64,000 bases of DNA from Isoetes taiwanensis (Eukaryota; Streptophyta; Lycopodiopsida; Isoetales; Isoetaceae): the NCBI GenBank assembly GCA_021234155.1, contig JAJEKV010000020.1, positions 18,901,018 to 18,965,017 on the forward strand. Reading direction: 5' to 3'. The notes under the pieces were generated by a model. That model made no database searches. It worked only from the letters and a program-made list of their open reading frames with translations, and was not told the origin of the DNA. This document shows, piece by piece, positions 26,373 through 56,726 of the stretch (position 1 is its first letter; the number at the start of each line of letters is the position of its first letter). The translations under genes were made by a program, and so were the position numbers.

Positions 26373-26815
26373 GAAGGAAGGAAGGAAGGAAGGAAGGAAG
26401 GAAGGAAGGAAGGAAGGAAGGAAGGAAGGAAGGAAGTATATTTTAACGTCCACGGAGGCCAACTGGCCTATGAGACGGTGATACAATGTAGTGGAAAGTT
26501 TCCAAACACAAAAGAAAACAACAGAAACCCTGTACAATGTGTCTCTACCACTGGGATGAAAAAACCCCCCATGTGGGAGGAAAAACCCTTGTAGTAGGCG
26601 TTGAGAGGCCCTATCCGGGCGCCAAATTCCCCGCGTGGTCTTTGTGAGGGACTCACGGCCCGGTGGAGACTTGCGAGAATGTAGGATGCGAGACGTGCCA
26701 CCATTGGCGAAGCCAGCAGTTGATGAATTGCTATCTCAGAGCATCTGAGATCGGCATGAGCTGCTTGGATGTGTGCATATGCTGGGCATTCCTGTAGAGC
26801 ATGGAAGGAAGGCAC
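26373..26815 (-). mobile_element. LINE family A, short 3' fragment, copy 2
   Basis: On the minus strand the fragment begins in the ORF2 C-terminus, SFHALQECPAYAHIQ and MVARLASYILASLHRAV. These align with SHTFQSCPAF and SVRALGSYIQEVLDLRG of the copy at 35736-36475. Next come the long 3' UTR hairpin (26545-26597), the terminal hairpin AGGCC-AGTT-GGCCT (26456-26469), GTGGACGTTAAAATATAC and a (TTCC)n tail at 26373-26436. It is severely 5'-truncated. GGAAGGAAGG also occurs at the 5' junction near 26800, so the flanking target sequence may itself have been GGAA-rich. Confidence 0.82.
26456..26469 (-). promoter_or_regulatory. LINE 3'-terminal hairpin (AGGCC-AGTT-GGCCT)
   Basis: The third stem position differs from the AGACC/GGTCT version on both sides (A-T replaced by G-C), a compensatory change that supports base pairing in RNA. 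Confidence 0.65.
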
Positions 26816-27779
26816 TACAATCCACAATTCTCACGAACTTGTGGATATACTCCAAACTCAGCTTTAAGCTTTGGAAATGGGAGTCGAGTGTGTCAAACAA
26901 CCAAGAAACTCCAACATCTTACGCAACATCATCCATCCAAGTTCTGAAATGACCCCACTTATGACTCCAAAAAAACTGAAATATCAGTGACCAATATGGC
27001 CATGAGTACTCCAGTCTTGGAGCAAAGTTATCTTTGTTTTTAGTCATTTGAGACTCTTGAAATGAAAGTTGCAGAAGTTTTTCAAGTTTTTCAAGTATTT
27101 CATTTATTAATATTAAAGTATCTAAAGTATTCATTCTGCTACATTGATATTAGTGCTTCATGTGCAAGTTTTCCCATTTACATAAAACTTCTTTTGCATG
27201 GTATTCACAAGAATAGTTCAAGGAGGACCAAAACAGAAATTAAGTGAACACAATATATGTGTTCACAAAATTAATGGTACTTTGTGTGTTCACAAAACCA
27301 ATGAGACTAGAAAGTTGACTATATGTGCAACTAAAAAAAATACTCTAGTTTTCAAAGCAAAATCCCAGAAGTAACATGGGTAAATATGATTCAGATCTAA
27401 AACGAAAGAACAAAAGATAATGGAGCATTTCAATTACGAAATATTGTATGATAACAAAGGGACTAAAGAAGACATAATACGTGGCAAGACATTGATCAAG
27501 GAAAATGGGAAGTTTCTGTTAACAAAGGAAGCAAAAGAAACAAGGTGCTGCGCACGGAGGGTTGCTCTACGGTGGCCCGAGAATGTGTTTTCATGTTTCT
27601 TGTTGTCGTTTCGTTTTCATGGTTCTTGTTGGGTCATTTTATGTGTCGGGGCTTATTAATGGTTTGAACGTGGGGTTTTGTTTTGTGTTGTTTTGTTTTG
27701 TTTATGAATTGTACATGGACCAAGAAGAGGCTTGCAAAGCTCAGTACCTAGACCAATTAGGATTGACGTGATTATGATA
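26816..27779. other. Unassigned stretch
   Basis: AT-rich, with no recognised gene. A T- and G-rich segment around 27600-27720 contains TTTTGTTTTG repeats. Confidence 0.5.
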
Positions 27780-29040
27780 TTTGTCTAAAACATCTTAGCC
27801 ATTCATGAAGAATTCGAGGAGGAAGAAATTATTATCCAGGAACTTCATGGACTGAAACGACGAGATCTCCATCCGCTTAAGGTGAGCTTGCAGCCACCCG
27901 CCGACTCTCCTTGTGTCTAACACTCCAGTATAGTACACCAGCACTGTGCATGAGACTAGATTGGAAATAGATTTGAGGTGCTACTGGTGATCTACCTCGA
28001 TTATATTAGCAGGAGGACTAGTGGGGTCAACCTGCAACTCTCTCCAGTTGTGCTGATTCAGATAGGCCAAAGCCTCCTCCATTCTGCAGGTGTCGGCCGG
28101 TGCCACTGTGTGTCGAATTCATTCTGAAAACCGTGGACGTGAGAGCCTGTTCACCGTATCATTCGTTCGCCAGGCAGGCCCTGCCGCATCAACTCCTTGC
28201 CCCTCTACCGCCCGCCTCTCCAGATTCGGGATCTTGCGACCCGATGGCTTATCTAGATGTTGCGGAGCACCACCACATCCCTCGCCCAGAGGCGGATTGC
28301 TCACCGGCTCTGCCACTGCAAAGGGGTCCTCTGGCAAAGTAGGAGTAGGCAAACTCGGACTGCCAAACGGGGTTGCTGTCTCCAGTGGAGGCATGCTGCT
28401 TGGAATTTCAAGTTCCGCTTCCCTGAAGCTTGTGCAACCACTGCTTGAGGGCTCCTTACATGAGCACCGACCTGCAGGCTGTCTACTGCAGGTGTTGCTG
28501 ACAGACCAAGAGAAGGTCCGCCCCCTCCTTCCTACCTACACCGGCCTCCCTAAGCCGCCCCTCCTCACGCCTTCCCAACTCCCCGACCTCCATAAGGCCT
28601 TGTCCAGACCCTAGCTGCTGCCCAGAACCCAGGAGGGGACTTGAGGCGGTCCGCCCCATCCCTTTGCTCCCTAAGACCCTATTCAAATCCGTCAATTGGG
28701 CAACCGGTTGAAGCGGCTCCCTACAACCCCGTTCAGATCCAACGACTGGAGAACTGATTGGACCTGGCTCTATGGAGTGCATAGACACCAGCCCAGCAGG
28801 ACGGAACTGCTGCCCTGAGGCTGCGGGATTCGTCTCCACCCCCTCCATCTCACCTCTACGATGATCCGATAAGGACGGAACAAGCTTCTGAGATGAAGAT
28901 CCAACAGATCGATTCTGCTGGGCCGCCCGAGCTACTTTTGGGATCCGCTTAGGAGGAGCCAGATGATTCGCCTGGGGTTCACTCCTGCCGTTGTTATCAC
29001 CTGCCATGCCGCCCTCCGGAGCCACGATCACCAACTCCGC
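27780..29040 (-). pseudogene. LINE ORF1-like (DUF4283-type) relic
   Basis: The minus strand of this GC-rich block reads MAGDNNGRSEPQANHLAPPK with a basic continuation RIPKVARAAQQNR (28483-29005). A Pro/Ser-rich linker follows. Then, around 27810-27920, comes a DUF4283-like segment, TRRVGGWLQAHLKRMEISSF and QSMKFLDNNFFLLEF. That last part aligns with FRVWLSRLLRR...FQSIKLLAKNFVLIMF of the element at 41192-42765. The pieces are in different frames. DUF4283 proteins are ORF1 products of plant LINEs. The long plus-strand ORF at 28090-28614 is an antisense shadow. Confidence 0.6.
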
Positions 29041-29794
29041 TCAGACCGTCGCCATCCCACATGGACACAATGTTATTGCATGTTGCAAAAGACAACATAT
29101 TAATAGCACAATTTGTTTTATTACATGTATGTATTGGAAAATAGTTCAGGGATGAAAATGTTCAAAGAGAACATTCCTATCTCTACTAATTTTGTTTGGG
29201 TGTTGACTTATTCCCCCTAAAAATGAACAATTGAATGGAGCCAAATGACAAATAACTTTGTCTTTAACATGTACAAATAAAAACATAGAAAGATTTTGTG
29301 TTTTCTGTAGTTATTTATTTAGGCAACACATCAAGAACACATTTTTAGAACAATCTTATGAACAATAGCACATGGAATGCCCATCGAAGGTGAGCAATTT
29401 CTTAGTTGATATTTAGAACACCTTTATCACTCTTTAAGTTTCTTGATATAGAAACCCTTCACGACATAAAACTTTTGTTATTTGTAAAAGTTTGTCGATT
29501 TTTTTAATGACAGGTAGTTTTGTCCCCCAAAAAGAACTATTCTCTTAGGACAACATTAATATAATCCTGTTAAATTGCAAAACCATTATAAATTGCTTCA
29601 ACAATAAGATACTATAAGAATCAAACCATAACAAAAATGAGTTTTCGTGCGTTTTCCTACATGAAGATTAAAAGGAACTTACTATTCACTCTCAAGCTGC
29701 ACTTGCACTGCACATATATATGAGATTCAAATGTATATATATTTGTTGCAAACGATGTGGCTAATACATTTGCAAATTGAATAGCGACACAAAA
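29041..29794. other. Unassigned stretch
   Basis: AT-rich sequence with no recognised feature. Confidence 0.5.
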
Positions 29795-29868
29795 CCAACA
29801 TATAAACCATTATATCCAACACTTTAATATTAAACCCCCTCCCGAAACCCCCTTTGGTTTGGGTGCAT
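29795..29868 (+). mobile_element. TIR element copy 4, left arm (split by CACTA insertion)
   Basis: CCAACACTTTAATATTAAAC through CCCCTTTGGTTTGGGTGCAT is the inverted match of 40242-40310. The two share variants (such as CC(A/G)AAACCCC) not found in the other copies. The CACTA element starts immediately after the CAT at 29866-29868. Confidence 0.8.
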
Positions 29869-30011
29869 CACTACAAGAGAATGATGGTTAGACGTCAGAA
29901 AAAACGTCAGATGATCCAACTGGGTTTGCTCGATGTAGCCATGACAATTTTACTGACTATTTATCTGACGATTATGCTTCTGACGATTATGCTTCTGACG
30001 ATTAACCTGAC
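29869..30011 (+). repeat. CACTA left terminus and subterminal repeats
   Basis: After the terminal CACTACAAGAG come GACGTCAG, ACGTCAGATG and repeated TCTGACGATTATGCT units. These match motifs of the right subterminal array. Confidence 0.8.
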
Positions 30012-30358
30012 GATGGGCATATTCGCCCTTTATTCCAAGATCTGGACCGTACATAGCGATCCTCGTTTGTGGGGTATGCATGTACAAGTTTTTGTATACT
30101 GTATATTAAGGTTTGCAAAATACTATAAGGTTTGAGAGAATGTACTTAATGGTGTTAATTTTGTACATGTATTGTGAATATATTTTAAGGGCTCTCGCTG
30201 CCCTACGTAACCCCCCGTGTGAATATGCACCCAAACCAAAGGGGGTTTAAGGGGGATTTTAATCTAGATGTGTTAAATGCAATGGTTTATGTTAATAAAT
30301 TTAATGGTAGTTATATGTTGATTGTTATATTAAAAAAAAATTTGGGCCCTTCGGGCCC
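30012..30358 (+). mobile_element. TIR element copy 2, left-truncated
   Basis: It begins inside the element interior (GGGCATATTCGCCCTTTATT) and runs through GGGGTATGCATGTACAAG to the right inverted repeat and the palindrome GGGCCC-TTC-GGGCCC (30344-30358). The left arm is missing; CACTA subterminal sequence abuts the break. Confidence 0.75.
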
Positions 30359-30966
30359 TAACTAAAGCAAACATAGGTAAACTTTATGGGCCTAAATATT
30401 AATTACTAAAAAGCACAATAACACGAAGACAAACAAATTATTTCCATGGCAAATGGATTCAATTGATGATTGCATGTATGCATTCTTATATACATGGCAT
30501 TCAAGTATTACCCATTTTTCTCAAAACAGTCAATAAGCCGCTTAGGAATTTCCTAGCCGCTTAAGGAAGCCCTGACGAGATACTGTTGCAATATCACAAA
30601 TGATTTCCTATCCTATATTGGCATTTATGGATTAATCACGAGCCGGAGTATGATCTATGCATAATACAACCATAGGCCAGGTACAAGCTAATCCTAACCA
30701 TAGCCAGGAAGCGTTTGTTTCCTCTAGTGAAGATACGTCTCAAAGTAGCAATGTCAATAATTTCTGGAACTCCTGTGGCAGATAAACACTGCTCAATTCC
30801 TCATCCTTGCCCATAACCATTTCATTGTCACGACCTGCATTGACACACAGCATATCTTAGGTAAATGCCTTTTCCAACTAGAAAGGGGAACAGATAAAGT
30901 TTACCTTGCGGACCTTGTCTTGTATAACATATTGTAAACTGAGGCAATAACAAAAGAAGTAAGGCA
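30359..30966. other. Unassigned stretch within the CACTA element
   Basis: AT-rich sequence with no recognised gene. It may be captured or degraded cargo. Confidence 0.45.
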
Positions 30967-31260
30967 TTAACCATAGATTTCAAGGAAGGCTGCGGTGACG
31001 ATGGCGCCAAACAAGATTTGTAAAGATAGCAATTGCATGGCTAGCTGAACATCATAAGCTCGTGATTCACCAGTTTTCAAATTTTCTATGTTAATTGACG
31101 AGATAAATGACCAACAAGTATCAAATTGTTCATTTCCCGGATTATGCAATCCTTGCCTTCTTTCCATGTGGAATCTCATCCCACCAAGGATGATTCTTTG
31201 CCGATAACCGGTGAGAAGCAACTTTTCAAACAAGGCTTTTCTACGAGTAGCCTTTTGCAT
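30967..31260 (-). CDS. Unrecognised coding-like fragment in CACTA cargo
   Basis: A 97-codon frame reads KALFEKLLLTGYRQRIILGG, MRFHMERRQGLHNPGNEQFD and AMQLLSLQILFGAIVTAAFL. It is not low-complexity, ends with a hydrophobic segment, and is followed on the minus strand by a possible donor (ATCTATG/GTTAAT near 30966). It may be an exon of a captured host gene. No family is recognised. Confidence 0.35.
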   Translation of the reverse strand: MQKATRRKALFEKLLLTGYRQRIILGGMRFHMERRQGLHNPGNEQFDTCWSFISSINIENLKTGESRAYDVQLAMQLLSLQILFGAIVTAAFLEIYG

Positions 31261-32203
31261 TATTATAAACGATCATGATTGGCCATAGGGCATTCATTCA
31301 CTAGGGATGATAGAGCCGATATTCCTATGAAAAAAAGGCACGCGTTTCACGCAAATCAAAACAATAGAATACTTTCCACTTGCCCTTCTAGAAACAAGAA
31401 TCCTAACAATATAAAAACAGCGGACCTCTTGGGTTGAGACGGACGGTGGGCGGCTATGGAGAAGCATACAAAGAGCTAAATTACGGGTCTCGTTCATGGC
31501 CACAATATCAACACATGGCTCTGTTTCTTACGCTTCAACCCAATGGATGATTTCCCAAGCACCTTGAATAGACAATTTGAAATGTGGTTTGTAGGACTTC
31601 TCTTTTTGAGATAACTTCGATTACTTTGTTGCATTTTTCTTCTTCAAGGCCGCAAGAATCCAAAAATCCCTTTACCTTTGGAGTAACCTGGCCCTTGTGT
31701 CCTCTGAAAAACAGATTTCAATGGAGGCCTTTTTACAGACGAGCTATGGCAAAGCCCTGTTTTCATGTTTACTCGGTTCCTTTCTTCCTTAAAGGCCGAA
31801 ATTGCTTCGGGTGTAAGTAATCGCCCGCCACTCCTCTTCACTTTTGGCCCTTTGGAGAATTTTGTTTGTCGCGCCATTGGAAACCCCCGATCATCTTTGG
31901 CCGGGCAACGCAACTATGGCTAGGGTTTCTATTTGTTTCCACAAACCAAACACAAGAATACGAACGAGCTTTACTTACCCGGTTCCTTTCTTTCTCAAGT
32001 TGCGAAATTGCTCCGGTGTAAGCACTGCCCGCCACTCCTCTTAAAAGCTCCAGATACGGCTGAATATATTTCATGTACCCCTGCCAGACCTATAACTCTT
32101 ATAATGTTTCCCCCAGACTGAAGCCAAAGATTGGAGATGCAATCACACACAGACAGATTCAGTATGGCAACAAACAACACAGATCCAAATCTGTTTCCAC
32201 GAG
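31261..32203. other. Unassigned cargo with an internal repeat
   Basis: A module with CGGTTCCTTTCTT, then AAATTGCT(T/C)C and CGCCCGCCACTCCTCTT occurs near 31770-31840 and again near 31980-32045. No gene is recognised. Confidence 0.45.
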
Positions 32204-32416
32204 GCTTGCATGTTCAGCCCCAAATAAAAAGAGGGCTTTTGTTGTGAGCCCTTGATGTTGGACCATTGAAAAAAAAAAGCTAAATCAACGACTAAGAAAT
32301 GGTGCACTCTAGATGTACGCATTAGTACATCCATTCGAATACGCCATGAAATCTTAGGAAAACCTTTGTGAAAAGGGTACAAAAAACACAAAAAAAAACC
32401 CATGTTATTATGCTAC
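32204..32416 (+). repeat. Duplicated cargo module M1, copy a
   Basis: It matches 34546-34760 almost base for base, including AATCAACGACTAAGAAATGG and the shared end TTATTATGCTAC. Copy a abuts TIR element 3 and copy b abuts a CGTCAG array. A more distant relative is near 43310-43440. Confidence 0.8.
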
Positions 32417-32890
32417 ACAACCAATACATAACTACCATTAACATTAATGAACACAACCATTGGGTTTAACATATTTAAATTAAAATCCCCCTTAAACCCC
32501 CTTTGGTTTGGGTGCTTATTCACACGGGGGGTGACTCCGGGCAACGAGAGCTGTTGGATAGGCATATTCACCCCTTATTCCTTAATCTACACCGTACGTA
32601 AAGTTCCTCGTTTGTGGGGTATGCAAGTACACAAATTGGTATACCATATAACAACATATGCAAAATACTATAAGATTTTTAGCAAAATACTATATGGTGT
32701 TGATTTTATACGTGGAAAATATAATCACAAGGGCTCTCGCTGCCCTACGTCACCCCCCGTGTGAATAAGCACCCAAACCAAAGGGGGTTTAAGGGGGATT
32801 TTAATTTAAATATGTTAAACACAATGGTTGTGTTCATTAATGTTAATGGTAGTTATGTATTGGTTGTTATACCAAAATTTTTTTTGGGCC
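32417..32890 (+). mobile_element. TIR element copy 3, complete
   Basis: Inverted repeats of about 130 bp at 32417-32545 and 32745-32867 begin ACAACCAATACATAACTACC and contain AAAATCCCCCTTAAACCCCC. The interior has GTGGGGTATGCAAGTACAC and no ORF. The right flank AAAATTTTTTTTGGGCCCTT is the degraded form of the palindrome seen beside the other copies. Confidence 0.82.
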
Positions 32891-33823
32891 CTTGGAAAAA
32901 AAAAAAAAAACAAACATACGTAAAAACATGTAAAACATGCAAAACATGTAGCAAATATGTGAAATCTAATATTTAACATTATAACAAAAATAAAGGAAAT
33001 CTGTAAAGAAGCCTGAATAAGTATAATATTATAGGATAATGTAATTTAATTGCGCCTCTTCAACCCGATGACATTTTCTTGTGCATGATGATTTTTTTCA
33101 TACGTGATGCCTTCTGCTTGCATGACTCCCGTTCGTGATGTTGAGCCTGGGTCTCGCCTGTTTCGTGCTAATCGTCTCATTGTAAGATGTTGAACTAATA
33201 TCTACAATTTTAAGAAAAAAAAGAATTGTTAATAACCACCTTTAGTAATAACTAGTAATTTGGACAATAAGTAGTAATTAACAACATAACTACCAATGTG
33301 CAAATACGTGACCTCCACTTTCAATGTCCATGCATATGTGCTCCATGTTGGCTAGTGATGCTATATTCGATATTTTGGGGGATTTCAACCCACATACAAA
33401 TCCTTGTAATATAAAATATCAATTTCATTGTGTTGATCATTTCTTTTTGCTTCTTGTAAATATCCAAGTTGGAGCGCCTGTAGTTGTTTAGTGGGTAAAT
33501 GCTGTAACATAAAATAAAATTACCATGAATCAAATAACATAATAGATAACAAACTTGCACAATAGATATGTTTCAAACAAGAACCTAAATGGGCAAAACA
33601 AGGAAAAAAGATTTCTAGGCCTTAAGACTGTAGTGCACACATTGCAGAAACAACTAGTAACTCGCCAAAAAAGGAAAAACAAAGACAAATATCCGAACTC
33701 GGACAAAGAGGTTACGGGATGGCACAAAAGTAAGCCCCCGAATCAGGGCTAATGCAAACAATGCATGCAAGTTATTTAGGTTTGCATGAAGCCGGGCTAA
33801 TGGAGCAATGCATGCAAGAAAGA
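32891..33823. other. Unassigned cargo
   Basis: AT-rich; no recognised feature apart from short ACATGTAAAACATGCAAAAC repeats near 32925. Confidence 0.45.
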
Positions 33824-33976
33824 AGGGAAGAATAATGGCCAAATTCTGGCGGGCAGATTCGAGGTCTTTTGCTCCTTCCTCCACTTTAATCTTTGCGCAG
33901 AAGTCAGAGGGTTGCACCAGAGTCTAATGTCGGAGGAAACTCCACCATATCCGAGGTAGAAAAACAAAATAGGTTT
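33824..33976 (+). repeat. Duplicated cargo module M2, copy a
   Basis: It matches 34256-34413: GAAGAATAATGGCC, CGGGCAGATTCGAGGTCTTT and GAGGTAGAAAAACAAAATAG. The same module in the same order is repeated about 430 bp downstream. Confidence 0.75.
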
Positions 33977-35731: not shown

Positions 35732-35773
35732 GAGGAAGGAAGGAAGGAAGGAAGTTACTTTTATCGTCCACGG

Positions 35774-35787
35774 AGACCAATCGGTCT
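35774..35787 (-). promoter_or_regulatory. LINE 3'-terminal hairpin (AGACC-GATT-GGTCT)
   Basis: Perfect 5-bp stem with a 4-nt loop, followed by CCGTGGACGATAAAA. Confidence 0.65.
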
Positions 35788-35818
35788 ATGGGACCCAATA
35801 CAAAAACGCAGCAAGCGG

Positions 35819-35883: not shown

Positions 35884-36475
35884 CAGCCTGCTGACAAACT
35901 GTGCTAATCATATAAAATGCAGAAACATCCCAATATATACAGTCATGCACCACCCCCGTAGTGCCTAGTCAGCGGACAGCCAGGCGGGGGCAAAGGTGAC
36001 CTCGCAGGTCCAGTACCTCCTGGATGTATGACCCCAGGGCACGTACTGACGGTGTGTTCATCAGCAAATGCAAGGGCACGTCCAGCCGTACTAAGGGAGC
36101 GTATCTGGCCCGAATCTGACTGAACGCTGGGCAACTCTGGAAAGTGTGAGACTCATCCTCAACGGCACCCGTTTGACAGCACTGACAGAGCCTGTCCTGG
36201 CGGGGCTCCCCAATCCACCTGCCCGTCTCGATGCGAAGATGGTGGGCACCTGTGCGAATGGAGGCAATGAGCCTGCGCTTTTTCAGGGGCAGCTGGGAAC
36301 GCAGGTAGAGCTGTGGGCCCCGGGCTAACACGGGGTTGATGTGCTCCTTGTAATGGGCCATTTTGACCTGCTCTAGAGCAATGGGATCCCAGAGCTTGCC
36401 AAGGAAACAAGCATCTAGGTACTCCCGCAGGCTGTCACGATCGGCCGCTGCGCCCAGCAGAGTCAAGAGTTCTCT

Positions 36476-38394
36476 AAGGCAAACATTATTTATTTATATT
36501 TGTTTTTTTAAAGGCATTTCTGGAAATCGATCTAAGGGTTACAAACCCTAGTTCAGTACGTGGCATTAGGGCCGAAATATCTGGCACCAAAGTGGCCGCC
36601 AGAATGATCCGGATTACAGGTATGACTTGGTTTTGTTTCTCATGACCATACAGAGCATAATACATGAATTTATCTGGTCGTTATGATCCAAAAATGGATC
36701 CGTTTCATATAAATACAGGAAAGCATTTTATTCGGCTATTGCATTGTATCTCATAGGCAAATACTTGCAACAATGACCAGAATATTTCGGTGGTGATCTA
36801 TACCATGGCCGAAAACAGGATTGGCGATGCCATGTCTACCCCTGTTGGCCGATTTGCTCTGAGTCCATATGCTACTAGGTGAGTAAAAAATCCCCTGGTT
36901 ATTCTTATGATGCTAAAACAAACTGTCAAGAACTGGTAGAACTAGTGATGGCAGTCATTGCAATCCAAAAGAAATGGATCCATTTCATGTTTGCCGGATT
37001 TGCAGGCAAAAAATTTGTAATGCTTTGGTGCTAGCAGCATGTAGGCCGGATATTCGTGGCCTTCTTACAGCTGTGGTAATTTATGCCGTAATAGCTATAT
37101 GCTGGGATGCTTCAGATGTCCGGAGTAACTTCAATTTAGTCCTTTGCTTAAGGATGCCGATCTGTTAACAATGCCGGATTTTTGTGCAGTTATAGAAAGA
37201 TAGAACAAACAGGTATTTTGTACTGTTCTTTTATAAGCTTTGAATACTTTAATTTATTTTATTTTATTTTATTCCTTTAAACTGGATTATACAATAGCCT
37301 TGGAGGCAAGTAGGCCGAAATACTAGGTTTGCTTGTTCATATTGGTATTTTTCGTGCATTCAAAATTGATGCATGTTGTAAGGATTTCAGGTTGCAAACA
37401 AGCATTAAGAAAATGCTCTCTGATGTAACTGGTTTTTGCCTTATTTTTCAGCTTTGTTTCAAGGTAATTACCAGCACAAACAGACTCACCATGTGATTTA
37501 GTACATGGCTGGATGTTATTGAGATAGAATGATCAAAAAACGTTCTAAGAATGCCAACTTGCAGCCGAAAATATGACGACATACTCTAAAGGTTTGAGTC
37601 AATATTTTGGTCTGTCTTGGTTACAAAAATCTTGCATTGGTAACTGAATAACTTTGCCTGTGCGTCATGTACACTCTGTATGCTTGAAAAGCTTATTTGA
37701 AAGCAAATGCTAAACTTAACCTCTTATGTTAATATTTGGGCAAATTTTGCCAAATTCTGAGATTGGGAATGTTCTTTTACCAAACTCTGATTTTGTCTTA
37801 TGACACAGTAATGATTAACTGATTACGTTATAGTGGAATTTGTTATCATAATGATTATCTAGGCAACTTCTTAGATTTGGGATCAAGAAATTGGTTCTCG
37901 TCTAATGATTTGTCTTGATAACAATATGATTGAATAATAATATTTTGACATCAATTCTGGAAGTTTTAATTCTATTCTAATTTCCTTTCTTACTAACGTC
38001 ATCTCAGGGCAAAAGAGTCATCTCTTTTGCCTTAGGTACACACTGTGGTTAGAGTCAAAATTTACAAATTTGTTGTACTGCCTTTTTTATGCATAACAAT
38101 GTGTCGTATTTACATTTGCTGATATTATTTGTTCTTGCAATTCTTGGCTTTCAGATATGTATATGGATATTGCAGCAGCATTTGGTATAAGCATTACAAA
38201 TCAAGATAAGCATCAAGCATTATAATTCAAGAAGACATGATACTACCATATCCACAAGGTGATGCATTCTAATCATTTCCATTATATTGCAGCTTGACAA
38301 ATATGATACTCCATTATTGTTCCTATGAAGGCAAAATATTTCATCACATTTATAATGGTAGTTGGTTGGGCAGCCGTTGCAACCCATATACTGC
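36476..38394. other. Gene-like cargo without recognised exons
   Basis: The sequence looks like introns and exons of plant DNA, with several acceptor-like TTTTTCAG/TTTCAG sites (near 37450 and 38155). No protein is recognised. It is probably part of the captured block that includes the OSCA exon. Confidence 0.4.
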
Positions 38395-41191: not shown

Positions 41192-42765
41192 GTTTTAGTT
41201 CGTTGGAAAGCTTGTTCCGAGAGCTCTCCATCAACATCAATTTTGTTAGGGTTTGCTATCAGATTAGGGGCCGGATTTGGGTCTGTTTGATTTCGGCCAC
41301 TCATAGTAGGGATGGGGAAGACAGATATAGTTCCAGCATCCAAGACGGCGTGAGTCTATCACCAATTTGGTGATACGTGATCCTCCAGTTGCTGCACAAA
41401 ATGAGGTGAATACCTCAGTTGAAAGTTCTTTGCCTTCGTTGCTTGCTACTCCAGCGGTTCTTGAAGAAAGGGATTTTCCTCCCTTGCAAGGCGCTGGGAG
41501 TAAGGGAGCGGAAGTTAATGGCAACTTGCATCCACTATGTACAGATTCCAGTCCTAATGTAGTTCCTCAGCCTTTGCCTCAGGCAAATAATAGTGCTTAG
41601 AAATCATCTGATTCGGTTACAAAAGTTTCATATCAAAGATTTAGCGATTGGCTTTGTAAGGATTGAGTATTTTACTGGTGGCTATTTAGATTTTTCACGG
41701 TTCCGTGTTTGGTTGTCTCGGCTTCTGAGACGCCTTCAACTTCCTCCTTTCCAGTCCATCAAGTTGTTGGCAAAAAACTTTGTTCTCATTATGTTTGAAA
41801 GTAGTGATGCAGTGGACTCTTTGGTATCAAAAGGGATTGATCCACTTGGTGGGGAATATATAATGTACCAGTATTATTCTCCTAGCTTTACACCAGATAC
41901 AGTTCGTGCATTAAAGATGCCTTGCTGGTTCTCATTACCTAATCATCCTCCCGATCTAATGGCTCATCAATTTCTACTTGCAATTGCAACGGGACTTGGG
42001 GTTCACATCTCACACTCCATCATGAATGGTCCAAGGAATTGTGTTTCTATGCCCGTGGATTCGCCTTTGCCAGATTGTGTAGTTGTGAAGAGAGGGCCTT
42101 GGTATAAGAAGTTGGATCTTAAGCTTCTGAATGGTCCAGAATTAGCCCGTTCATTTCCTGATAAGGAGGCTTTTGCTAGATTTCGTCGAGGTACTCGTGC
42201 ATCTCAGGCATCTGTTCAACATTCTTCTCAGGTTCAAGCTCCTACTGTTATTTCTTCATCTATTCATGATCAACCTTTGCCAGTTGTCTTGCATAAAGCA
42301 GATGTTCTACACACAGTTCCAATGGTGTCGTCCTTAGCACCGTCAACTGCAGCTATAGTTCCTACCACTCTTCCCGTTGTTGCTTCTGCTTCTCATGTTT
42401 CGGAGGTTATGGCTGATGGTCCTAATCTTCAGTGCACTAAAGAGTCATGGCAACAGGTCAATTGGAAGAAGGCAGCGAGGAAGAAGTCAGTTATGTCATC
42501 TCACGAGGCTATCTTGCCTCGTTCTATTCAGTGGCATGATAACTTGATGTCTGTTGATGATCATCCCGATGTTGCAGAACATGTTGATTGTGATGAGGCC
42601 TTTAAACGCCTCAAGGTGGCACAAGGAGTATGATTATGTACTGTGTTTGGGTGGTTTTGCTTAGTGGACCATCTCGTCCTCTAAGTTTTGAGTCCCATGT
42701 CACAGGTCCCTTGTATGTATCTTGATATTCCTTGATAATAGATTGTCGTCCTTCAAAAAAAAAAT
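41192..42765 (+). mobile_element. ORF1-only retroposed element (half-LINE), copy 1
   Basis: This 1,574-bp unit has exact 14-bp flanking duplications and a terminal A-rich tail (CCTTCAAAAAAAAAAT). It encodes a DUF4283-like LINE ORF1 protein and no endonuclease or RT. The N-terminal part is at 41367-41594 (ERDFPPLQGAGSKGAEVNG). A stop near 41598 and a frame change near 41650 precede the long frame, which is open to 42633. That frame reads FTGGYLDFSRFRVWLSRLLR, FQSIKLLAKNFVLIMF, MAHQFLLAIATGLGVHIS, SIMNGPRNCVSMP and VVVKRGPWYKKLDLKLLNGPE, then a Ser/Thr/Pro/Val-rich tail. There is no CCHC knuckle. It was probably mobilised in trans by a LINE. Confidence 0.78.
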
Positions 42766-44300: not shown

Positions 44301-44344
44301 ATCGAAATTTTTGCTACCAAGTGTAACTACAATGGGCAATAAGA

Positions 44345-44566
44345 ATTTGCATTAACACACTAGTTCCTTAGCAATGTGGTCTCGAGTTCGAGACCGCCCA
44401 GAATCGCACTCGGTACTGTTGGGGGTCAAATCCCAACAGACGCAATGTAAGGTGGTTGGGGGCAGGGCCCAACCAAGCAATGTAGTGTGGTGTGTGGTCA
44501 CATGTCCAGTTGGATGCTGCCTAGTGGCGTGACGTTAAAACTACTATCTATCTATCTATCTATTAA
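44345..44566 (+). mobile_element. tRNA-type SINE with TCTA tail
   Basis: A B-box-like palindrome GGTCTCGAGTTCGAGACC lies at 44381-44398. A body with GGGGGTCAAATCCCAACAGA follows. The 3' module is GCTGCCTAGTGGCGTGACGT, then TAAAACTAC and (TATC)n. Hairpin TGCC-TAGT-GGCG sits at 44518-44529. The same 3' module is at 1449-1529. The 5' boundary is uncertain and no target-site duplication was found. Confidence 0.55.
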
Positions 44567-48029: not shown

Positions 48030-51000
48030 ATGAATTTGTTGCCAACAATGTGTAGAATTGTGTTGGTCTTATTTTGCTCTCTCACTTCGAATGGCGCAGC
48101 AGCTGGGCAAGGAGCAGGTCGTGCAAAGTTATGCTGGATTTTGGTTCATGCCCTCTGCGTAGGATTTTTCCTGGTTTCGAACATGAAGTTTAGACAAGAG
48201 GCGCTGTCTTGGACATGGTAATGGGCTTGACCATGACAGCATCTACTCCTTATTCATTACCTGTTTGCCTTTACTCGTGATTCAGGGACACTACACTATA
48301 CTTCCTACTGCTCTTTGCTACAGTTGTGCAATATTTATGTACAGCCGGTTCTTCCCCAGGGTACTACAATTCAGCCTTCACAGAGTATATATAACATATC
48401 ACTCTGCTTATTTATTTTTCTTGGATGCAGATATGTTGTTGATGTGGAGGCAAGCGATGCAATTGAAGCCAATGTGAAGGCAACACCAAATGCAAGTACT
48501 GGGTATGTTCACACAAGACTTCTGTTCTTCTAAATTAGTAATGCAGTTGACTTTGAGGAAAGGACTTCATTTATTCATAAGAAATTCAACAATTTTTTCT
48601 GATTCTAAGAGCAATACTGATGATAATAATTCTAGCAATAACAATTGTAGAGAAATACTATAAATGCAGCAGAAACAATAGGTATTATCTGAAAACTATT
48701 TCTATTACAGAAAGATCTGTAATGCAATGCATGGTTATGGTAAATTTGTGAAACTGGATATGTCAGAGAGAAGATATTTTCTAGCAATTTAATATATACC
48801 TAGAGTTTTGCTCCATCTTGTGTTCTATATTTTAGCCTCTGCATTTTTAGTGTTCATTGTGGAGTTAGTTGTTTATTATATATTCTTTTGCAGACTTGGG
48901 TCTTCTGGCTGATTTTGAACATGGACTTGCATTTGTTCAGTCACAGCAACTGGCGTTGTCCCTATTGTCGAGTCTGGCAGGTATACTACGGCACACTTTT
49001 TTGTATTGGAGGCGAGTTAGTTATAAAATGAACTTCAAAGAAAGACGTCTGTAGAAAATTCTCAGCGAATATTTTCATAATAATATAAAATGTATAGGAC
49101 TATAACAAGTCCATCCCATCAGTAAAGCTGATCAGAAGATTTTCGGGAAAAAACATGGAACAGAGTAATTTGTCATTCTATATATGTAACTGAAAGCACA
49201 AGAAAGAGAAGTACTACAACAAAAATCTTTACTATCTTATGCCTTTATTGATGGCAGTCGCAAGGTTAAATTTATGTATTAACTGAAAATAGAAAAATAA
49301 TGTGTATATAATTATCTTATTTTGTTTGTTCTTTTGCAGCCTCTGAGAGCCAAGCACTGTCATGATTGTGACAAGTGTGTCTTGCGTTTCGATCACCATT
49401 GTATCTGGCTGGGGACATGTGTCGGTCAGTTCAATCATTGTAAATTTTGGTATGTTAAACATTGTACGTGTGCTTGTAAACTATTTGCATGGCTGAGCAT
49501 GTTGATTATAAACGAACTCTTATATTTTTTAGTTTGGTTGCAAGAGGGCCAATAATCACTAGTGTAACATATGGAACTCAAACATCACATGTTAGGGATG
49601 TGCTAAAAAAATCTTAGCGATGACATTGTTTTTTTTATCGCAGAAAAGCCTCCTATACATAAATAGTGACTTGCATGGGCTTTGGATCAAATAACTTTTC
49701 CATCCAGACTTTTGAATTACAGAATACCAGAAACCTATCATTAGAGAGAATATAATATATCGGCCAAAAGTAGATTCGTATGAGCAATCAATTTCTGACT
49801 CTTGAAGTACAAAGATCCTTTTGGGAAGTTGCCATTATCAGAACTGTTTGAACTTCCTTACTATATGGCACGAGTTGTATCTTCAGTTTTGAGGATTGAA
49901 AAAGGGCAGTATTTGCTTGTAGTGCTTCACCTACTTAATATGGTCATCTTATCTCACTCATATGTTGCCCACCTCCACTTTTCAAGAGGCCTGCTCTGTC
50001 GTTGCACTGTGGCTATTTACTTTGCTTCGAGGCAAACATGTGGTGCTAGGGGCAGGTCACAGGTAATGAAAAGGATTAGCTATGGTAGATTATTTAAATG
50101 GCAAGGCAAGAATGAGAGTAAAAGTAATGAGGTAAAGATGTATAATGCGGAAACCATATTTGTCTTGTATAGAAAAAATATATTTATCTTTGTGAGGTTG
50201 CCAATATCTTCCTGTCTTGATGAATTACTGGAAATTTACTAACTGCGGTATGCATGCCAAAGTTCGAATAAGAATTGCCAAGCGTTTGGTCATATATGAC
50301 AGAGAATTGGTGTTGTCCATTACTAAAAGTGTTTCTAATCTAGTGTCTTCCTGGCATGCAGGTGGTATGTTCTCTTTGAAACAAGCCTTTGTCTTTGGAC
50401 TACGGTCTTGTACTTCATGACGTTTGCTGATGAGACATCTAGATATTGGTACAGTTCCCTCCAACAGTCATTAGATGATTCTTTTTCAACTTTACAGTCT
50501 CTTTTTGGGTGTTGATTTGCAGGTTGCATCGAGCATTCTTACTGCTGATATTTATTGCCCTATTTTGCTGTTCGGGTTTTCTTGTGATTCTTCTTTTCTT
50601 TCACAGGTTTATACTGCTGTACTTGCTTATTATTTTGGAGATTTAATAGTGTGTATTATATGAAACTTACAAGCTGCTTATATTCCAGTTACCTGGTTAT
50701 TACAAATCAAACGACGTATGAGAAAACAAGGCGGCGCCGCATATCATATCTTAGGTAATTCTTGCAGGTTTTACAATGATGACGTTATGGAGACTAGGAA
50801 AATGGACTCGAATTTATGTATCGTGCTTGTGCTATTGACCAAGCATAGGTTGTCTGTTGATAAAGAGGGAGATTTAATTGTTTGTCTTATATGTGAGACC
50901 GTCTATGCTCTCTTTGGACATTTCAACATTTGGTGAGAATGAACGTAATTTCAGATTGATAACCAGCATCTGCTCATATTTGTGCAGGACTTTTCCTGCG

Positions 51001-51147
51001 GATCTCTACCCTTTTAGCATTGGCTTCCGGTTAAACATCTATGAGTTTTGCTGCGGTAAATTTGATCGCATTTATCACCTTCCCTCTCCTGAAGAAATAG
51101 ATGCACGCAGAAGATGGCATTTCTTTCCACGTGCTTCTTGCTCGTGA
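48030..51147 (+). CDS. PAT10: DHHC protein S-acyltransferase, PAT10-like (9 exons)
   Basis: This gene encodes a palmitoyltransferase that attaches fatty acyl groups to cysteines of membrane-associated proteins; plant PAT10 acts at Golgi and vacuolar membranes. The exons I read are 48030-48217, 48286-48360, 48431-48502, 48941-48980, 49340-49449, 50362-50448, 50523-50606, 50689-50754 and 50988-51147. All join in frame at GT-AG sites to 293 residues. The cysteine-rich domain spans about 115-162: [20 protein letters not shown], then [12 protein letters not shown] with DHHC at 143-146. Four membrane segments lie near 34-50, 66-83, 165-183 and 196-222. The TTxE motif (TTYE) is at 227-230, and a PAT10-type C-terminus ([19 protein letters not shown]) follows. 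It appears intact but is shorter than Arabidopsis PAT10 (about 340 aa), mainly at the N-terminus and before the cysteine-rich domain. The ATG at 48030 is the least certain point. Confidence 0.88.
49760..50130 (+). pseudogene. Coding-like fragment inside PAT10 intron 5
   Basis: Within the 912-bp intron, a frame reads [20 protein letters not shown], then [20 protein letters not shown] and on to 50242. It is coding-like in composition but not a DHHC exon; exons 5 and 6 join properly without it. I do not recognise the family. It may be a fragment of another gene carried into the intron. Confidence 0.35.
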
Positions 51148-51743
51148 TAAGAGCAGAGCATGCAAGATGGATTGCAAGATGATTGTAGCAGAATATATTC
51201 ATCCAGACATGGTATATTCGAATTTTTATGTCTACTTTGTCCTTGTATAGCTATATTAAATTGAATTTTTTTATTGCTGCTGCTTGACATTGCAAGCTTG
51301 GTTGATTGTATGCATTAAGGAGGCTAATTTGTTCTATGATGATCATATTCTTCTATATCCTATGATGATCATATTTTAGATGACATGAGCATCTTGGCCA
51401 GATTCTTTGGCCTCGTGAAGCCCAAGGGCTGCTTTAGCTACATAACCTACCTTTCATGTAAGCACTCTGAATGTGATAAAGGCCAGCAGCAATAGTACCA
51501 GAAATTATTTTATACATAGGGAAATGGGCCTATAATCGAGAAGGAAATAGACTCCTCAACGTTAGTAATAAAACTTATATTGATCCCATTATCCAAACAT
51601 TTGAGAAGCACGATCTTAGCAATAATAAGCTCTTTTGTAAAACTCAATGAGGAGTCCATCATTCAAGGGCTTGGAAAGAGACAAGTTCTGGTCAATGACG
51701 GTAAGTGGTATCCAAAGTTGTACAATAATTCTGTAGTGACAAC
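51148..51743. other. 3' region of the PAT10-like gene, no further gene seen
   Basis: It presumably includes the 3' UTR. AATAAA-like polyadenylation signals cannot be assigned with confidence. Confidence 0.45.
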
Positions 51744-51971
51744 TTGCTCATCTCATTATCACTGGAGACTTGAATCCCATCCATATTAGTACTATAGAAC
51801 TGATTTTCCATCCATATTATTGCTCATCTCATTATCATTGGAGACTTGAATCACATCCATATTAGTACAATAGATCTGATTTCCTATCCATAGTATTGCT
51901 CATCTCGTTATCGTTGGAGACTTAAATCACATCCATATTAGTACTATAGATCTGATTCCTCTTTAACTTTG
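51744..51971 (+). repeat. 76-bp tandem repeat, three copies
   Basis: Units start at 51744, 51820 and 51896, exactly 76 bp apart, with TTGCTCATCTC(A/G)TTATC, then GGAGACTT(G/A)AATC and CATCCATATTAGTAC. In one frame each unit contains IITGDLN or IIGDLN, reminiscent of the GDFN motif of LINE endonucleases, but the surrounding sequence gives no endonuclease domain. Confidence 0.85.
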
Positions 51972-52894
51972 GCTTTAGCTTTGATGGAAAAAGTATTTGG
52001 AGTTCCATCTTTCATAATCTTTGGACTCCTTTATTACTGCGTTATCATGCTGATTAGTTGGAGCAAAGAGCAGCCTCTACTTAAGCTCCTCAAGATGTTA
52101 CCTCTCTTCCACGAAAATCTGTTTGCCCTACACTTTCAACCGATCTTTATGTTTCTTGTGGGTTTTAACCATCTATCCATGCTGTCCTAGAGACCTAGGG
52201 TTCTCGAGAAAAGACACAATATGAACGTAATTGGGATTATCTCTAACTAGGAAAATGGATAAGAGATGGTGTAGTTAACTCTACTATTATAAATCCACAA
52301 ATTCTCACAAGGATAAAACCCTATGGTGAAGACAACATATAGGGTTATCCTTATGATAAAGGAGTGGCAAAGTGAGATAATGGAAGGAGATAAGGTTGGT
52401 CTAGGCATTATGCTCTCATTAATATAAGGGATCCAAAATTACTGCTTCTCGTATAAATCTAAGAGTTAGCATATTGAAGCCACCTGCAAGAATACACTCA
52501 TCAAAGAGAATGGTCCCAAGTAAATTATAAGCATAAATATTGGCAAAAGCAAATGTAATTGAGCCAATGTGGCTTCATAAGAATATGCCATTTTCTATTA
52601 TTAGCATGCATCATCTAAATGCTAACAAGCTGATGAACCCAAAATGAGTGAAGAGGGGAACAAAATGATAAACCCCAAATGAGTAAAACAACAAATACAG
52701 GGTTCAACCACCCGATAAATAAGATAATTGTGTACAATGATTTCAGGCCCCCACATAGAACATTCAGAAAGTCGCTATACTATAGTGCTCTCGAACTGCA
52801 ACAACTGTAATAGTCAGGTCGCGCCACCCATCCAAGCAGTGACTCAAATCCGTTCAGCTAAGATACTGCTCCATGTGTCCCTCTTGGCCGCTCA
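51972..52894. other. Unassigned stretch
   Basis: No recognised gene. An ORF at 51969-52190 is hydrophobic without family motifs. Confidence 0.5.
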
Positions 52895-53345
52895 TATAAA
52901 AAGCAACCTTATGCACATCAGAGAGCTCCAAACTGCAAGAACAAACAACATGTGATTGTCAACTGTGTTAGGAGCCATCTACAGGCCAAGAGTCAGCAAG
53001 CTATAAAGTTGGACTAGAAATACAAGAGCACAATATCAAAATGGAAAAGAAGATCCATGAGGATCCTCGAAAACCATAGAGCTACGCCGAGATAGGAAAA
53101 TATAGGCTCGACCCAGAGGCGTATAAAAAGCAGCCCCATGCACATCAGTGAGCTCCAAACTGCAAGATCTAACCATATGTGACTGTCAAGTGTGTTAGGA
53201 GCTTTCTCCACGGGCCAAGAGTTAGCAAGCTATAAAGTTGGACTAGAAATATAAGAGCACAATATTGAAAATTGAAGAGATGATCCATGAGGATCCTCGG
53301 AAGCCATGGGGCTACGCCAAGATAGAAAAATATAGGCTCGACCTA
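52895..53345 (+). repeat. 227-bp tandem duplication
   Basis: Units start at 52895 and 53122 with TATAAAAAGCA. Both contain GAGCTCCAAACTGCAAGA, GCTATAAAGTTGGACTAGAA and GATCCATGAGGATCCTCG. No coding content is recognised. Confidence 0.85.
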
Positions 53346-55529
53346 GGGGGGCTTCCCCTCGGTGCCCTCCAGAATCACCACGTGCTATGCTGGGAAAAAT
53401 GCAGAAGCCCATTCGCTAACATTGAACGAAAAGTAAAACCCATATAGCAGAGTAAGAGGTGGGAGGGGAGGAACTCCGTATAACAGGCTTGTGCCAAAGA
53501 AAGCTTGGGTCCAAAAAGAGAGCTTGCGCTAAAACTGGCGTCCCTATCCCATTCTAGGGATAGGTCCTTTATGCACAAATATCATCATCCGACACAAAGA
53601 GGAACCTCCCTCAAATCCCATCATAGATTGAGACCATGAAAGACTGTAAGACGCAACTCGATGCCAGGAAAAAATATAACAATCATGAGATGAGCAGGAT
53701 GTCAATGCAATAACAATCATGAGACGAGCAGGATGCCAATGCTATTTCTCGACCCGACCCAACCCCTTCTCTTCAAATCCGCTGCCTTGGCTTGATATAG
53801 ATAGATGGTGACCTTGCATGAAAGATTATCTCTTTATAAAGTGCCCCTTTGCATAATGATTTAGATAACCCCTTTTTGCTTGGATAATTTTTTAATGGTT
53901 TGGAAATTTTTTTTTTTTTTTAAAGCAGGATTTTTATGTTATTTGAAAAGAGGTCTAAGACCTTATTACAGTAAAATGGCTCCACAATAGACCTGATAAT
54001 ACATATAAGAGCTCTTGGTCACCAGATAGGCAGATTAGGCTCCACCTTCCAGCACAATGCCAAGGCTTAACTGCTAAACACCAACCAGCAGAAAGTAATG
54101 AAGGCGCTCGATCTTCTTCCGTTGTTTGCAGTACTATGGCCGCAGCAAACTACTTCCAGAGGATTAGACCACACCCTTAAGCCCAATAATAAAGATTTCA
54201 GCGGAGGAACCTGTGTTGTACTAAAGAAAGCTACCTGCTTCTTTTCACAAACTCGGTACTATAGAGAGCCACCTTACATGTTTCTGGGGGAAGGTGGTTC
54301 TCAGAACCCTTGGGCAAGTGCTGGATACAAACCCCTACCTAAAATTGATTGTCACTGCCTGCTCCACCCACCTAGCTACTTCGAGATCCACCTTACAAAC
54401 CAAATGCAACACCAAAACAGCTGAAGCTCCTCCCTAAAGCACTCTGGACCAGCAAAAAGGATATTTGCTGATCCAAAGCATAGCATCTGGTGTACACCTT
54501 GCTTAAGTCGGGCCTTCTTGGTCTCCCGCCCTAGAAAGCCCTGTGCAGAATCTCTGGCAACCACACAAGCTTCACCACAGCAGCTCAATCATTTCAGGTA
54601 TTCCCTAGCTAGGATAGGGATGGGCGAACAACAAGAACACCTTAACCAAGAACATTCCTAAGTACGGAACAACAGCACTTGCAGCCTAAGACAAAACCCA
54701 ACAGTCCAATGTTCCAGGCCCACTGAATCCACCTCTAGCTCTGACACTGTCTTCCCATACATTAAGCTGCACAAGGCTAAGGTATCTCAGTTCTAACAGA
54801 TTTTAAACAGAACAAGAGCGAGCAACCCATAAGCTCCAATATTCCATGATATAATGGTATACCCTGATCCTGCAGCTGCAGTAAGTGCAGCTCTGAACCG
54901 CAGGGAGTGCGGCCTTCTACTGCAATGAGTGCAGCTTGAAACCAAAGTCTGCCATCATATGCTTAATGGATAATAACTGGAACTGAAAAATCAGGCTCAA
55001 ATGCTGTTCAAAATCTGCCTAGCATTGGCCCAACAAAGGAGAAGCAGACTAGCCTAAAGCAACAGCCTGAGGATACCCACTTTTCCAATGCTTTGCTCAA
55101 ATACTAGGTATACTATCCAGCCCCAAAAAACACGACAGAGATAGAAAACCATTCTTACCCAATCTGGTTTTGGCCTTCCAGAGAAAGATCCAAGAACAAC
55201 GGCCATGTTCTGAGTGCAAACTCCTTGCTGCCAAATCCGATAATGACAGAGCAAAAACGGGGCCCTATACCTCCGACCAGCTTCTGGGGTGACAGCAGCA
55301 GCCGATAAGCTGCTCTTCCAGCCAGGTGCCTGCACCAACGAAGAACTCCTGAGCTCGGGCGGCGGCTGCCGCCGCCCTAGTTAGCGCCTAGGTTTTCCAT
55401 TCGCCTAGACATTCATCTTCTATAGGGTTTGGAATATATTTTCTTAAGTCCCTTTTAATTGTACTTTTGGGAACGAGTAGGAGCTAGCATTTACATGTCA
55501 CGTCAGCCGAGGATCCCCACCTTCAGTTA
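53346..55529. other. Unassigned intergenic stretch
   Basis: No gene is recognised. A GC-rich inverted repeat, GGGCGGCGGC-TGCC-GCCGCCC, is at about 55357-55377. ORFs at 54098-54424 (plus) and 55054-55338 (minus) have no known motifs. Confidence 0.5.
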
Positions 55530-56616
55530 TTGAGGGCAGAATGTGGAAGTGGCATCCACATACAAATATTTGGGAGTGGAGTTTCCTTCTACTATGCACT
55601 GGGACACGTCCATACGGCTACGAGTGACGGCGGGCTGGAAGGCACTATATACAATGCAAAACAATAGCCATAGAGCGGAGTTGTATGATTGGGCCCATCA
55701 GTCACACCTGTTCAAAGTCTTAGTGGAGCCTGTCCTTTTATACGGGGTTGAAGTATGGGGCCCAGTAGTATCCCTCGCTACTTGGAATGACTTGGAGCAA
55801 GTGCAGAAAGCCTTCCTGGTACGAGCACTAGGGGTGAAGTCCACAGTCCCATATCAAATTCTACTGCAGGAGACAGGATTCTTGCTTCTTCAGAGGGCGG
55901 CCCTTGATCGCCATATTGTCTATTTTCAGAAGGTGGTCAATATGGACGATGCTCATCTCCCTAACCTAGCTTATATCATGGCAATGGGGCCACAATGCCT
56001 CAAGGCCTGCTGGAGGGAAAAGAGAGCTCAATGGTTGGCTAGATAGAATGTGCAGAAGCACAATTGCATACATGTGCAAACAGAGGCAGATCGCCATAGC
56101 TTGAGGCAATATCTTGACGCTTGCTTCCTCAGCAAGCTTTGGGATGCCAGTGCCCTTGAACAGGTCAAGACAGCACACTACGAGCGCCACATAAATTCCA
56201 CATTGGAACGAGGCCCGCAATGCTACCTGCGTACCCACTTGCCCATGAAAAGGCGCAGACTCATTGCCTCCATTCGCACAGGAGCACACCATCTTCGAAT
56301 TGAGACGGGCAGATGGATTGGTGAGCCACGCCAGGACAGGCTCTGTAAATGTTGCCAAATGGGAGTCATTGAGGATGAATCTCATACCCTTCAAAGTTGC
56401 CTAGCATATGATCAAATCTGGATGCGTTATGCTGAGTTGGTCAGGCCTGGCCAGCCACTACATGTGACATTGAGCACGGCTTCCATACGGGTGCTGGGAT
56501 CATACCTTCAGGAGGTTATGGACATGCGAGATCAGCTATGTCCTCGGGCACACACTTGACATGTATATATACATTTATTTCATGATGATGTATACTTGTA
56601 CAGTTTGACAACATTC

Positions 56617-56685
56617 TTATTACTGCCACGGTTTTTCCCTCGAAAACCCTTTAGCGCGGGGCTTTTTTAACCCGGACAGTAATAA
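56617..56685 (+). promoter_or_regulatory. LINE-A 3' UTR long hairpin
   Basis: The outer stem pairs TTATTACTG with CAGTAATAA; the inner arms are GTTTTTCCC, CGAAAACCC and GGGGCTTTTTTAACCC. Confidence 0.65.
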
Positions 56686-56712
56686 GTTTGCTGCACTCCT
56701 TCTGGGTCCCAT

Positions 56713-56726
56713 AGGCCGATTGGTCT
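56713..56726 (+). promoter_or_regulatory. LINE 3'-terminal hairpin (AGGCC-GATT-GGTCT)
   Basis: The stem is kept through one G-T wobble. CAGTGGACGATAAAA follows. Confidence 0.6.

Follow-up and report, generated by a model that had tools for sequence, protein, structure and literature searches.

Several long interspersed nuclear elements (LINEs) in a 64,000-nucleotide stretch of the lycophyte Isoetes taiwanensis (assembly GCA_021234155.1, contig JAJEKV010000020.1, positions 18,901,018 to 18,965,017 of the forward strand; hereafter the window) end in a small hairpin, followed by a short sequence box and a tandem-repeat tail. Is this hairpin an RNA structure kept by selection and, if so, what does it do? 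We found that it is the inner part of a 3'-terminal RNA element of about 30 nt that is common to many LINE families of this genome and whose stems are kept by compensatory change. Its probable role is template recognition by the LINE reverse transcriptase (RT).

The two-helix element at LINE 3' ends

Five stem-loops had been listed in an earlier note on this DNA, which assigned them to two LINE families and described a GACGAYAAAA-type box just after the hairpin. All five matched letter for letter, in coordinates as well as in strand. At 21527 the hairpin is followed by GACGAAATAA instead of this box. LINEs of at least three different families (A, B and D, the last being the copy at 26456) are present in the window, together with a short interspersed nuclear element (SINE). 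Eight microsatellite-tailed 3' ends with a GACG..AAAA-like box were found in the window: five with the hairpin, one of family B (18165) with the hairpin deleted, and two belonging to the SINE. The boxes lie at 1937 (minus strand) and 21527 (plus strand) in family A, at 18165, 35768 (minus strand) and 56732 in family B, at 26450 (minus strand) in D, and near 1480 (GACATTAAAA) and at 44531 in the SINE. The string GACGNNAAAA occurs eight times in the window against 1.37 expected, a count reached in none of 100 shuffles, although not all eight occurrences are LINE ends.

Folding revealed a second, outer helix, in which XGTCY, located eight bases upstream of the inner stem, is paired with RGACX. 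The box is therefore the 3' strand of this helix, which the earlier note had overlooked. A short internal loop separates the outer helix (4-6 bp) from the inner one (4-5 bp), which is capped by a family-specific loop of 3-4 nt; an A-rich stretch and then a short tandem-repeat tail lie downstream. The outer strands of family A differ by clade (TGTCT/AGACA, CGTCT/AGACG, CATCT/AGATG, GGTCC/GGACA, TGTCA/TGACA and TGCCA/AGGCA). Of the minimum-energy folds of 80 nt from 39 family A copies, 38 contained at least four of the five inner pairs, and 38 had the outer 5' strand in pairs with the 3' side. An Rfam scan of the whole window returned no match.

The loop had been said to vary freely; it is family-specific instead. 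TGAT was found in 34 of 39 RT-anchored family A copies, with TGGT in three and TGGC and CGAT in one each, and family B has mostly GATT, AGTT or AATT among the genome-wide matches listed. TATT is a further type, and one subfamily has UCU. In most rows of the alignment described below, CCGTGGACG or CATAGACG forms the 3' flank. Tails consist of TTTCA, CTTC, TATTC or similar repeats, which are typical of the subfamily and are not poly(A); derivation of these repeats from the target site was considered and dropped, since the tail unit largely tracks the subfamily.

We then counted the element across the window's own assembly (1,658,258,908 bases in 1,110 contigs), with the reversed pattern as control. 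GGTCTN{0,6}GACGATAAAA occurs 8,673 times (4,365 + 4,308) against 43 (26 + 17) for its control, and CCATN{12,24}GTGGACGNNAAAA, which leaves the inner stem unspecified, 16,147 times (8,047 + 8,100) against 30 (21 + 9). Among the roughly 100 of these 16,147 places that were listed, the inner stems were AGACC/GGTCT, AGGCC/GGTCT, AGGCC/GGCCT, GACC/GGTC and AACCC/GGGTT, alongside some decayed copies; in the AACCC/GGGTT type two neighbouring pairs are altered on both sides. A third pattern, GTCTCATAGN{10,16}GACGNNAAA, gave 380 + 380 matches against 0 + 1 reversed, with the loop TCT in most matches listed.

Copies were also sampled through their coding sequence. Family A was chosen by reverse transcriptase, not by hairpin, with a 191-aa RT stretch of copy A1 as query; the genome yielded 33,022 first-look candidates. 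Scores were obtained for 150 of them (58-100% identity), and 40 of these were examined in a stretch beginning 0.6 kb or more downstream of the RT match. The hairpin was present in 39 of the 40, including 19 of the second 20, which lay outside the profile, and in all 39 the longest frame that runs into this stretch has its stop upstream of the element. For family B the ORF2 C-terminal protein served as query, and 17 of the 20 places examined (of 150 scored) had their own hairpin in place according to a covariance model whose rows include family B. In L137 and L151, both of family B, similarity was lost after a GGGGTTTTT tract, and in L143 the match was on the other strand. A stem-loop between ORF2 and the terminal repeats, as in a stringent-type LINE 3' recognition hairpin, is thus present in 39 of 40 and 17 of 20 anchored copies.

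Some features near the element were seen in passing. In seven family A copies (L064, L065, L067, L068, L109, L110 and L111) the stop codon ends one base before the outer helix, so that coding sequence abuts the element. Upstream of the outer helix there is a conserved hairpin-like stretch ending GGGG(G/C)TTTTTT, at a distance of about 35 nt in family B (reckoned from the box) and of about 80 nt in D1. It was located at 18113-18130 and 56657 of the window, in the 3' untranslated regions of B2 and D1, and in L137 and L151; in two of the 20 family B copies LINE similarity ends right after it.

Hairpin loss was met in two copies from different LINE groups, each by a short internal deletion with intact flanks. 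Copy B1 (18165) lacks about 29 nt between unchanged flanks when compared by eye with L003 and L008, and the exact 21-mer across its deletion junction occurs once in the whole genome. In L105 a deletion of about 15 nt has removed one arm and the loop (by eye, against L108). Such losses possibly arose from the reverse transcriptase skipping the stem.

Covariation and conservation

A 68-row alignment was built by sequence from 75 covariance-model matches at E values up to 0.05. Rows were dropped where identical or nearly so to a kept row (L005, L008, L034, L055 and L057) or where the 5' part was chimeric (L030); L040, nearly the same as L001, is also not among the 68. Matches above E 0.05 were excluded, including the hairpin-less copy at 18165, L081 and L072, and L079, one of 20 sampled places, gave no listed match. 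Covariation was assessed with our own shuffles, tree simulations and RNAalifold.

Across the 68 rows 90.0% of cells were paired, and two-sided changes were observed at seven of the ten pairs, namely o1, o2, o3 and o5 of the outer helix and i1, i2 and i3 of the inner, confirming that the stem is kept by compensatory change. These changes occupied 38 cells against 10.9 (standard deviation (sd) 3.2) in shuffled alignments, a value reached in none of 500 shuffles, and only one shuffle in 500 reached seven two-sided pairs. Equally, the covariation score of 0.238, against 0.164, was reached by none of 500 shuffles. Sliding the partner by 1-3 columns lowered pairing from 90.0% to 21-56%, and RNAalifold, run on the same rows with no structure supplied, recovered eight of the ten pairs, in both helices.

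Because relatedness can inflate counts of two-sided change, a tree-based null was used as well, in which each 3' column evolved independently on the coding-sequence tree of the 39 family A copies. In these copies 379 of 390 cells were paired. At the five pairs with a variable 3' side, 186 of 195 cells were paired against 161.7 expected (sd 7.1), which none of 1,000 simulations reached; taken singly, the observed pairing was reached in 19 simulations per 1,000 for o1, 6 for o2, 33 for o3, 3 for o5 and 497 for i3. The 3' side of the remaining five pairs is invariant in this family. Within family A the covariation support comes from the outer helix; the inner one hardly changes in this family and differs from family to family.

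Conservation is concentrated on the element. Among 25 non-redundant family A copies, mean pairwise identity was 0.92 in the inner hairpin and 0.72 over the 34-nt element. It was 0.54 in some 300 nt of mostly coding sequence, 0.33 in the 60 nt upstream of the element and 0.54 in the 30 nt downstream (A-rich stretch and tail).

The arms might be conserved as primary sequence only, with pairing incidental. Five pairs (o4, i1, i2, i4 and i5) do hardly vary in family A; the variable positions, however, mostly co-vary (o1, o2, o3, o5, i1, i2 and i3 on both sides in the 68 rows) and pairing exceeds the independent-columns model on the family A tree, which leaves this explanation very improbable. The earlier note had interpreted the hairpin as an RNA structure under selection and had called for a compensatory-pair test over many copies. 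That test, run on a genome sample partly chosen by RT, supports the interpretation: neither of the contrary outcomes named in advance, stem positions varying independently and a hairpin confined to a few related copies, occurred. Compensatory pairing, another feature of stringent-type LINE 3' recognition hairpins, is accordingly present here.

The LINEs, the SINE and neighbouring repeats

Feature coordinates are collected in Table 1. The sequences indicate that the elements are LINEs of the apurinic endonuclease (APE) type: L090 has an open ORF2 frame in which an APE endonuclease domain (PF03372, E 6.3e-12, 46.1 bits) runs into the RT, whose first part scores 29.5 bits with PF00078 (cut-off 29.6). 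A CCHC-like motif was seen by eye at the ORF2 C-terminus, and a Pfam search of one C-terminal stretch found no further domain. The RT of copy A1 contains a tandem repeat of 761 bases (2924-3684/3500-4260, 98.7%), as a result of which the RT core occurs more than once. By sequence, the nearest solved RT was that of R2, with 83.7 bits against 51.8 for human L1 (query joined from two copies), or 59.8 against 45.7 with a single-copy query. The RT motif RQGCPLSPTLF is, we presume, reminiscent of RandI/Dualen LINEs. A viral contig scan with the LINE RT found nothing, and no target-site duplications of at least 11 bases were found, a result that says little given the strict filter.

The ORF1 of L090 is an open frame of 422 aa with a coiled-coil-like stretch (by eye) and RIAGLPE..RNIIVRF motifs. 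It had no Pfam match and no convincing relative among solved structures; we take it to be reminiscent of animal L1-type ORF1, which is perhaps unusual for a plant LINE.

Within family A, element variants largely track supported clades of the ORF tree, and the loops differ consistently between families. Both observations make it unlikely, if still conceivable, that the 3' end has spread between LINE families by template switching, so that its sharing would partly reflect recent exchange of a still functional element, even though families A and B are deeply split in RT (31% identity) yet have a common 3' end. The 3' ends of D1 and B2 (tail included) are also in line with such exchange, being 85% identical over 62 nt with no further upstream match at that setting.

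The SINE ends in a comparable structure, though a slightly different window (44490-44545) folds otherwise. Its AGTT loop also occurs in D1 and in part of family B, and GACGTTAAAA and (CTAT)n follow the structure. A 24-mer from the SINE 3' end has 1,458 exact matches in the genome (725 + 733) against none for the control; the SINE body was present at 18 of 20 sampled places, and the other two look 5'-truncated. Read by eye against the tRNA box consensus, the 5' part is tRNA-like, with TCTAGTGGTAA in eight of the 20 sampled copies, and GAGTTCGAGAC. Since the SINE 3' end resembles the LINE covariance model only marginally (14.5 bits, E 0.36), we regard it as a probable functional mimic of the LINE element rather than a proven partner.

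Table 1 Features of the window, with coordinates, strand and the basis of each assignment (CM, covariance model).
Feature	Position	Strand	Basis or remark
Copy A1 3' element, TGTC-ATAT-AGACC-TGAT-GGTCT-..-GAC(GAC), outer and inner helix	1931..1959	-	CM match 1924-1961, 37.9 bits; copy is a row of the model
Copy A1 inner hairpin, AGACC-TGAT-GGTCT	1938..1951	-	Sequence check
Copy A2 3' element, CGTCT-CAT-AGACC-TGGC-GGTCT-CGA-AGACG	21519..21548	+	CM 42.4 bits; row of the model
Copy D1 3' element, CGTCT-CAT-AGGCC-AGTT-GGCCT-CCGT-GGACG, third LINE family	26447..26477	-	CM 53.5 bits; row of the model
Copy B2 3' element, GGTCC-CAT-AGACC-GATT-GGTCT-CCGT-GGACG	35765..35795	-	CM 58.9 bits; row of the model
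Copy B3 3' element, GGTCC-CAT-AGGCC-GATT-GGTCT-CAGT-GGACG	56705..56735	+	CM 59.3 bits; row of the model
Copy B1 box and (TATTC)n tail retained, hairpin deleted	18165..18174	+	Comparison with L003/L008 by eye
ORF2 remains of LINE copy A1, RT with internal tandem duplication, C-terminal CCHC-like motif	2005..4327	-	PF00078, 125.6 bits
ORF2 3' part of LINE copy A2	20274..21514	+	Sequence comparison
ORF2 remains of LINE copy B1	16452..18123	+	RT 31% identical to A1 over 206 aligned positions
ORF2 C-terminal part of LINE copy B2	35972..36532	-	Sequence comparison
ORF2 C-terminal part of LINE copy B3	55534..56556	+	Sequence comparison
Frame upstream of D1 hairpin, C-terminal stretch resembling family B (by eye), without Pfam match	26471..26830	-	
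SINE, tRNA-like 5' part (by eye), (CTAT)n tail	44334..44563	+	First 20 bases diverge from full copies; start approximate (44334-44354)
SINE 3' structure, outer GTCAC/GTGAC, hairpins GTCC-AGTT-GGAT and GCC-TAGT-GGC	44497..44533	+	Folds; CM 14.5 bits, E 0.36, marginal
5'-truncated copy of SINE 3' end, (CTAT/ATCC)n tail	1430..1500	+	1452-1506 92.7% identical to 44509-44563

Other features of the window were noted. An open frame with a DUF4283 match (33 bits) lies at 41593-42633; we assume DUF4283 to be a domain of plant L1-type ORF1, and this may be a different LINE class. At 25009-26443 an open frame of 305 aa is followed by another frame, which the D1 LINE tail (AGGA repeat) enters. A large imperfect inverted repeat covers 7000-11430, with TC-rich arms at 7000-8119 and 10339-11430 (76.6%); between the arms are TTCTAGAA-rich tandem arrays, and 8501-9785 matches its own reverse complement. 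Finally, a foldback repeat family is represented at 32417-32867 (78% against its own reverse complement), with further copies at 14140-14616 and 30012-30359.

Probable template recognition and known systems

What, then, does the element do? We consider it likely to be a 3' recognition element of the stringent type, used in target-primed reverse transcription and comparable to those of UnaL2/ZfL2 and the monocot L1 LINEs. The ORF2 protein would bind the structure on the LINE RNA and thereby select the template, with the stems providing the general shape and the loop the family specificity; the repeat tail would be the site at which cDNA synthesis starts and slips, and the SINE, by imitating the structure, would borrow the LINE machinery. 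According to the part of PMC4176376 on the zebrafish ZfL2 LINEs, their 3' stem-loop is essential, the stems are exchangeable and the loop is recognised by the cognate protein; a conserved shape with a family-specific loop fits this scheme. SINE partners of LINEs with such 3' stem-loops are also described there (PMC4176376).

The main rival gives the structure a role in forming the RNA 3' end, in RNA stability or in export, for example as a stem-loop beside a poly(A) signal, rather than in RT recognition. In 24 of the 39 family A copies AATAAA does follow the inner hairpin at a distance of no more than 38 nt, and family B has GATAAAA. However, 15 of the 39 hairpin-keeping copies are without AATAAA (variants such as TATAAA not counted), and copies end in subfamily-typical short repeats, not in poly(A). 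In addition, a comparable 3' structure is found on the SINE, which by eye is of tRNA type. SINEs of this type are transcripts of RNA polymerase III, and a similar 3' structure on what is presumably such a transcript points to RT recognition over mRNA processing. We regard the processing or export role as quite improbable; the comparable SINE end makes recognition by the reverse transcriptase, as the earlier note had suggested, more likely than its rivals.

Several observations weigh against a selected recognition structure or narrow its support. Pattern searches that fix part of the 3' letters supplied 40 of the 68 rows (23 + 17). Inner-helix covariation taken by itself was not significant within family A (i3, 497/1,000), and independent-pair sign tests on the tree were too few for significance at any pair, although their direction was compensatory and never opposite. 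The outermost pair is unpaired in 36 of the 68 rows, including most of family B, and the L054 clade and L066 likewise leave it unpaired. One of 40 family A and three of 20 family B copies are without their own hairpin. As for the SINE, its tRNA origin was read by eye only, with no tRNA found by ARAGORN (window) or Rfam (E up to 10, SINE region), the LINE covariance model fits it marginally (14.5 bits, E 0.36), and a LINE with exactly its 3' end was not found among 20 of the 1,458 places.

Under RT recognition, comparison with known systems shows both likenesses and differences. UnaL2 of the eel and ZfL2-1/ZfL2-2 of the zebrafish, from the L2 clade, also have a stem-loop in the 3' tail, that of UnaL2 ending in TGTAA repeats according to the passage on it in PMC3747384. 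The Isoetes element differs in that two helices are stacked and the outer of them includes the 3'-terminal box, and its host is a lycophyte, not a fish. Another known case is a monocot L1 lineage (monocot 1a/ME1), for which the relevant part of PMC3747384 describes a 3' end conserved against a diverged body over the last 45 nt or so, and a hairpin with compensatory changes, common to the maize and sorghum SINEs ZmSINE2/ZmSINE3. The likeness lies in a plant LINE 3' hairpin with compensatory changes and a conserved end. The monocot 1a hairpin has a conserved UCU loop, CGAG after the stem and variable stem letters, and the SINEs of maize and sorghum finish with tracts of T or A (same part of PMC3747384). 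The UCU/CGAG signature is not shared here: loops are TGAT, GATT, AGTT, TATT and others (UCU in one subfamily), the flank is CCGTGGACG or CATAGACG, and the tails are short repeats rather than T or A tracts. Compared by tail description only, RandI/Dualen LINEs and SINEX SINEs of Chlamydomonas are alike in being green-lineage LINE/SINE pairs with short-repeat 3' ends, e.g. (ATT)n, (CTATTT)n and (CTTT)n (PMC3747384, in its passage on them, which mentions no 3' hairpin common to both).

The earlier note considered such a hairpin in a plant LINE worth describing. The general kind is already in print for monocot L1, in the section of PMC3747384 cited above, and the present instance was not found in the literature: a search of titles and abstracts of open-licence papers gave no report of a 3' hairpin in lycophyte or fern LINEs. 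In PMC3747384, a 2013 review of the stringent/relaxed hypothesis, the words Selaginella, Physcomitrella, moss and lycophyte do not occur. The element thus adds to the plant cases of structured LINE 3' ends one from a lineage that this review does not name.

With thousands of copies, natural variation allows the loop and stem code to be deciphered. The LINE mobilising the SINE is predicted to have an AGTT-type loop. Stringent template recognition has been proposed to be lost in most flowering-plant LINEs. Tentatively, as a possibility we hold to be somewhat less likely than not, most APE-type LINEs of this genome, from at least two deeply split groups, and a SINE may share one two-helix element, its stems a general handle and its loop a family-specific address, so that stringent recognition would prevail in this genome and may represent the older condition among land plants.

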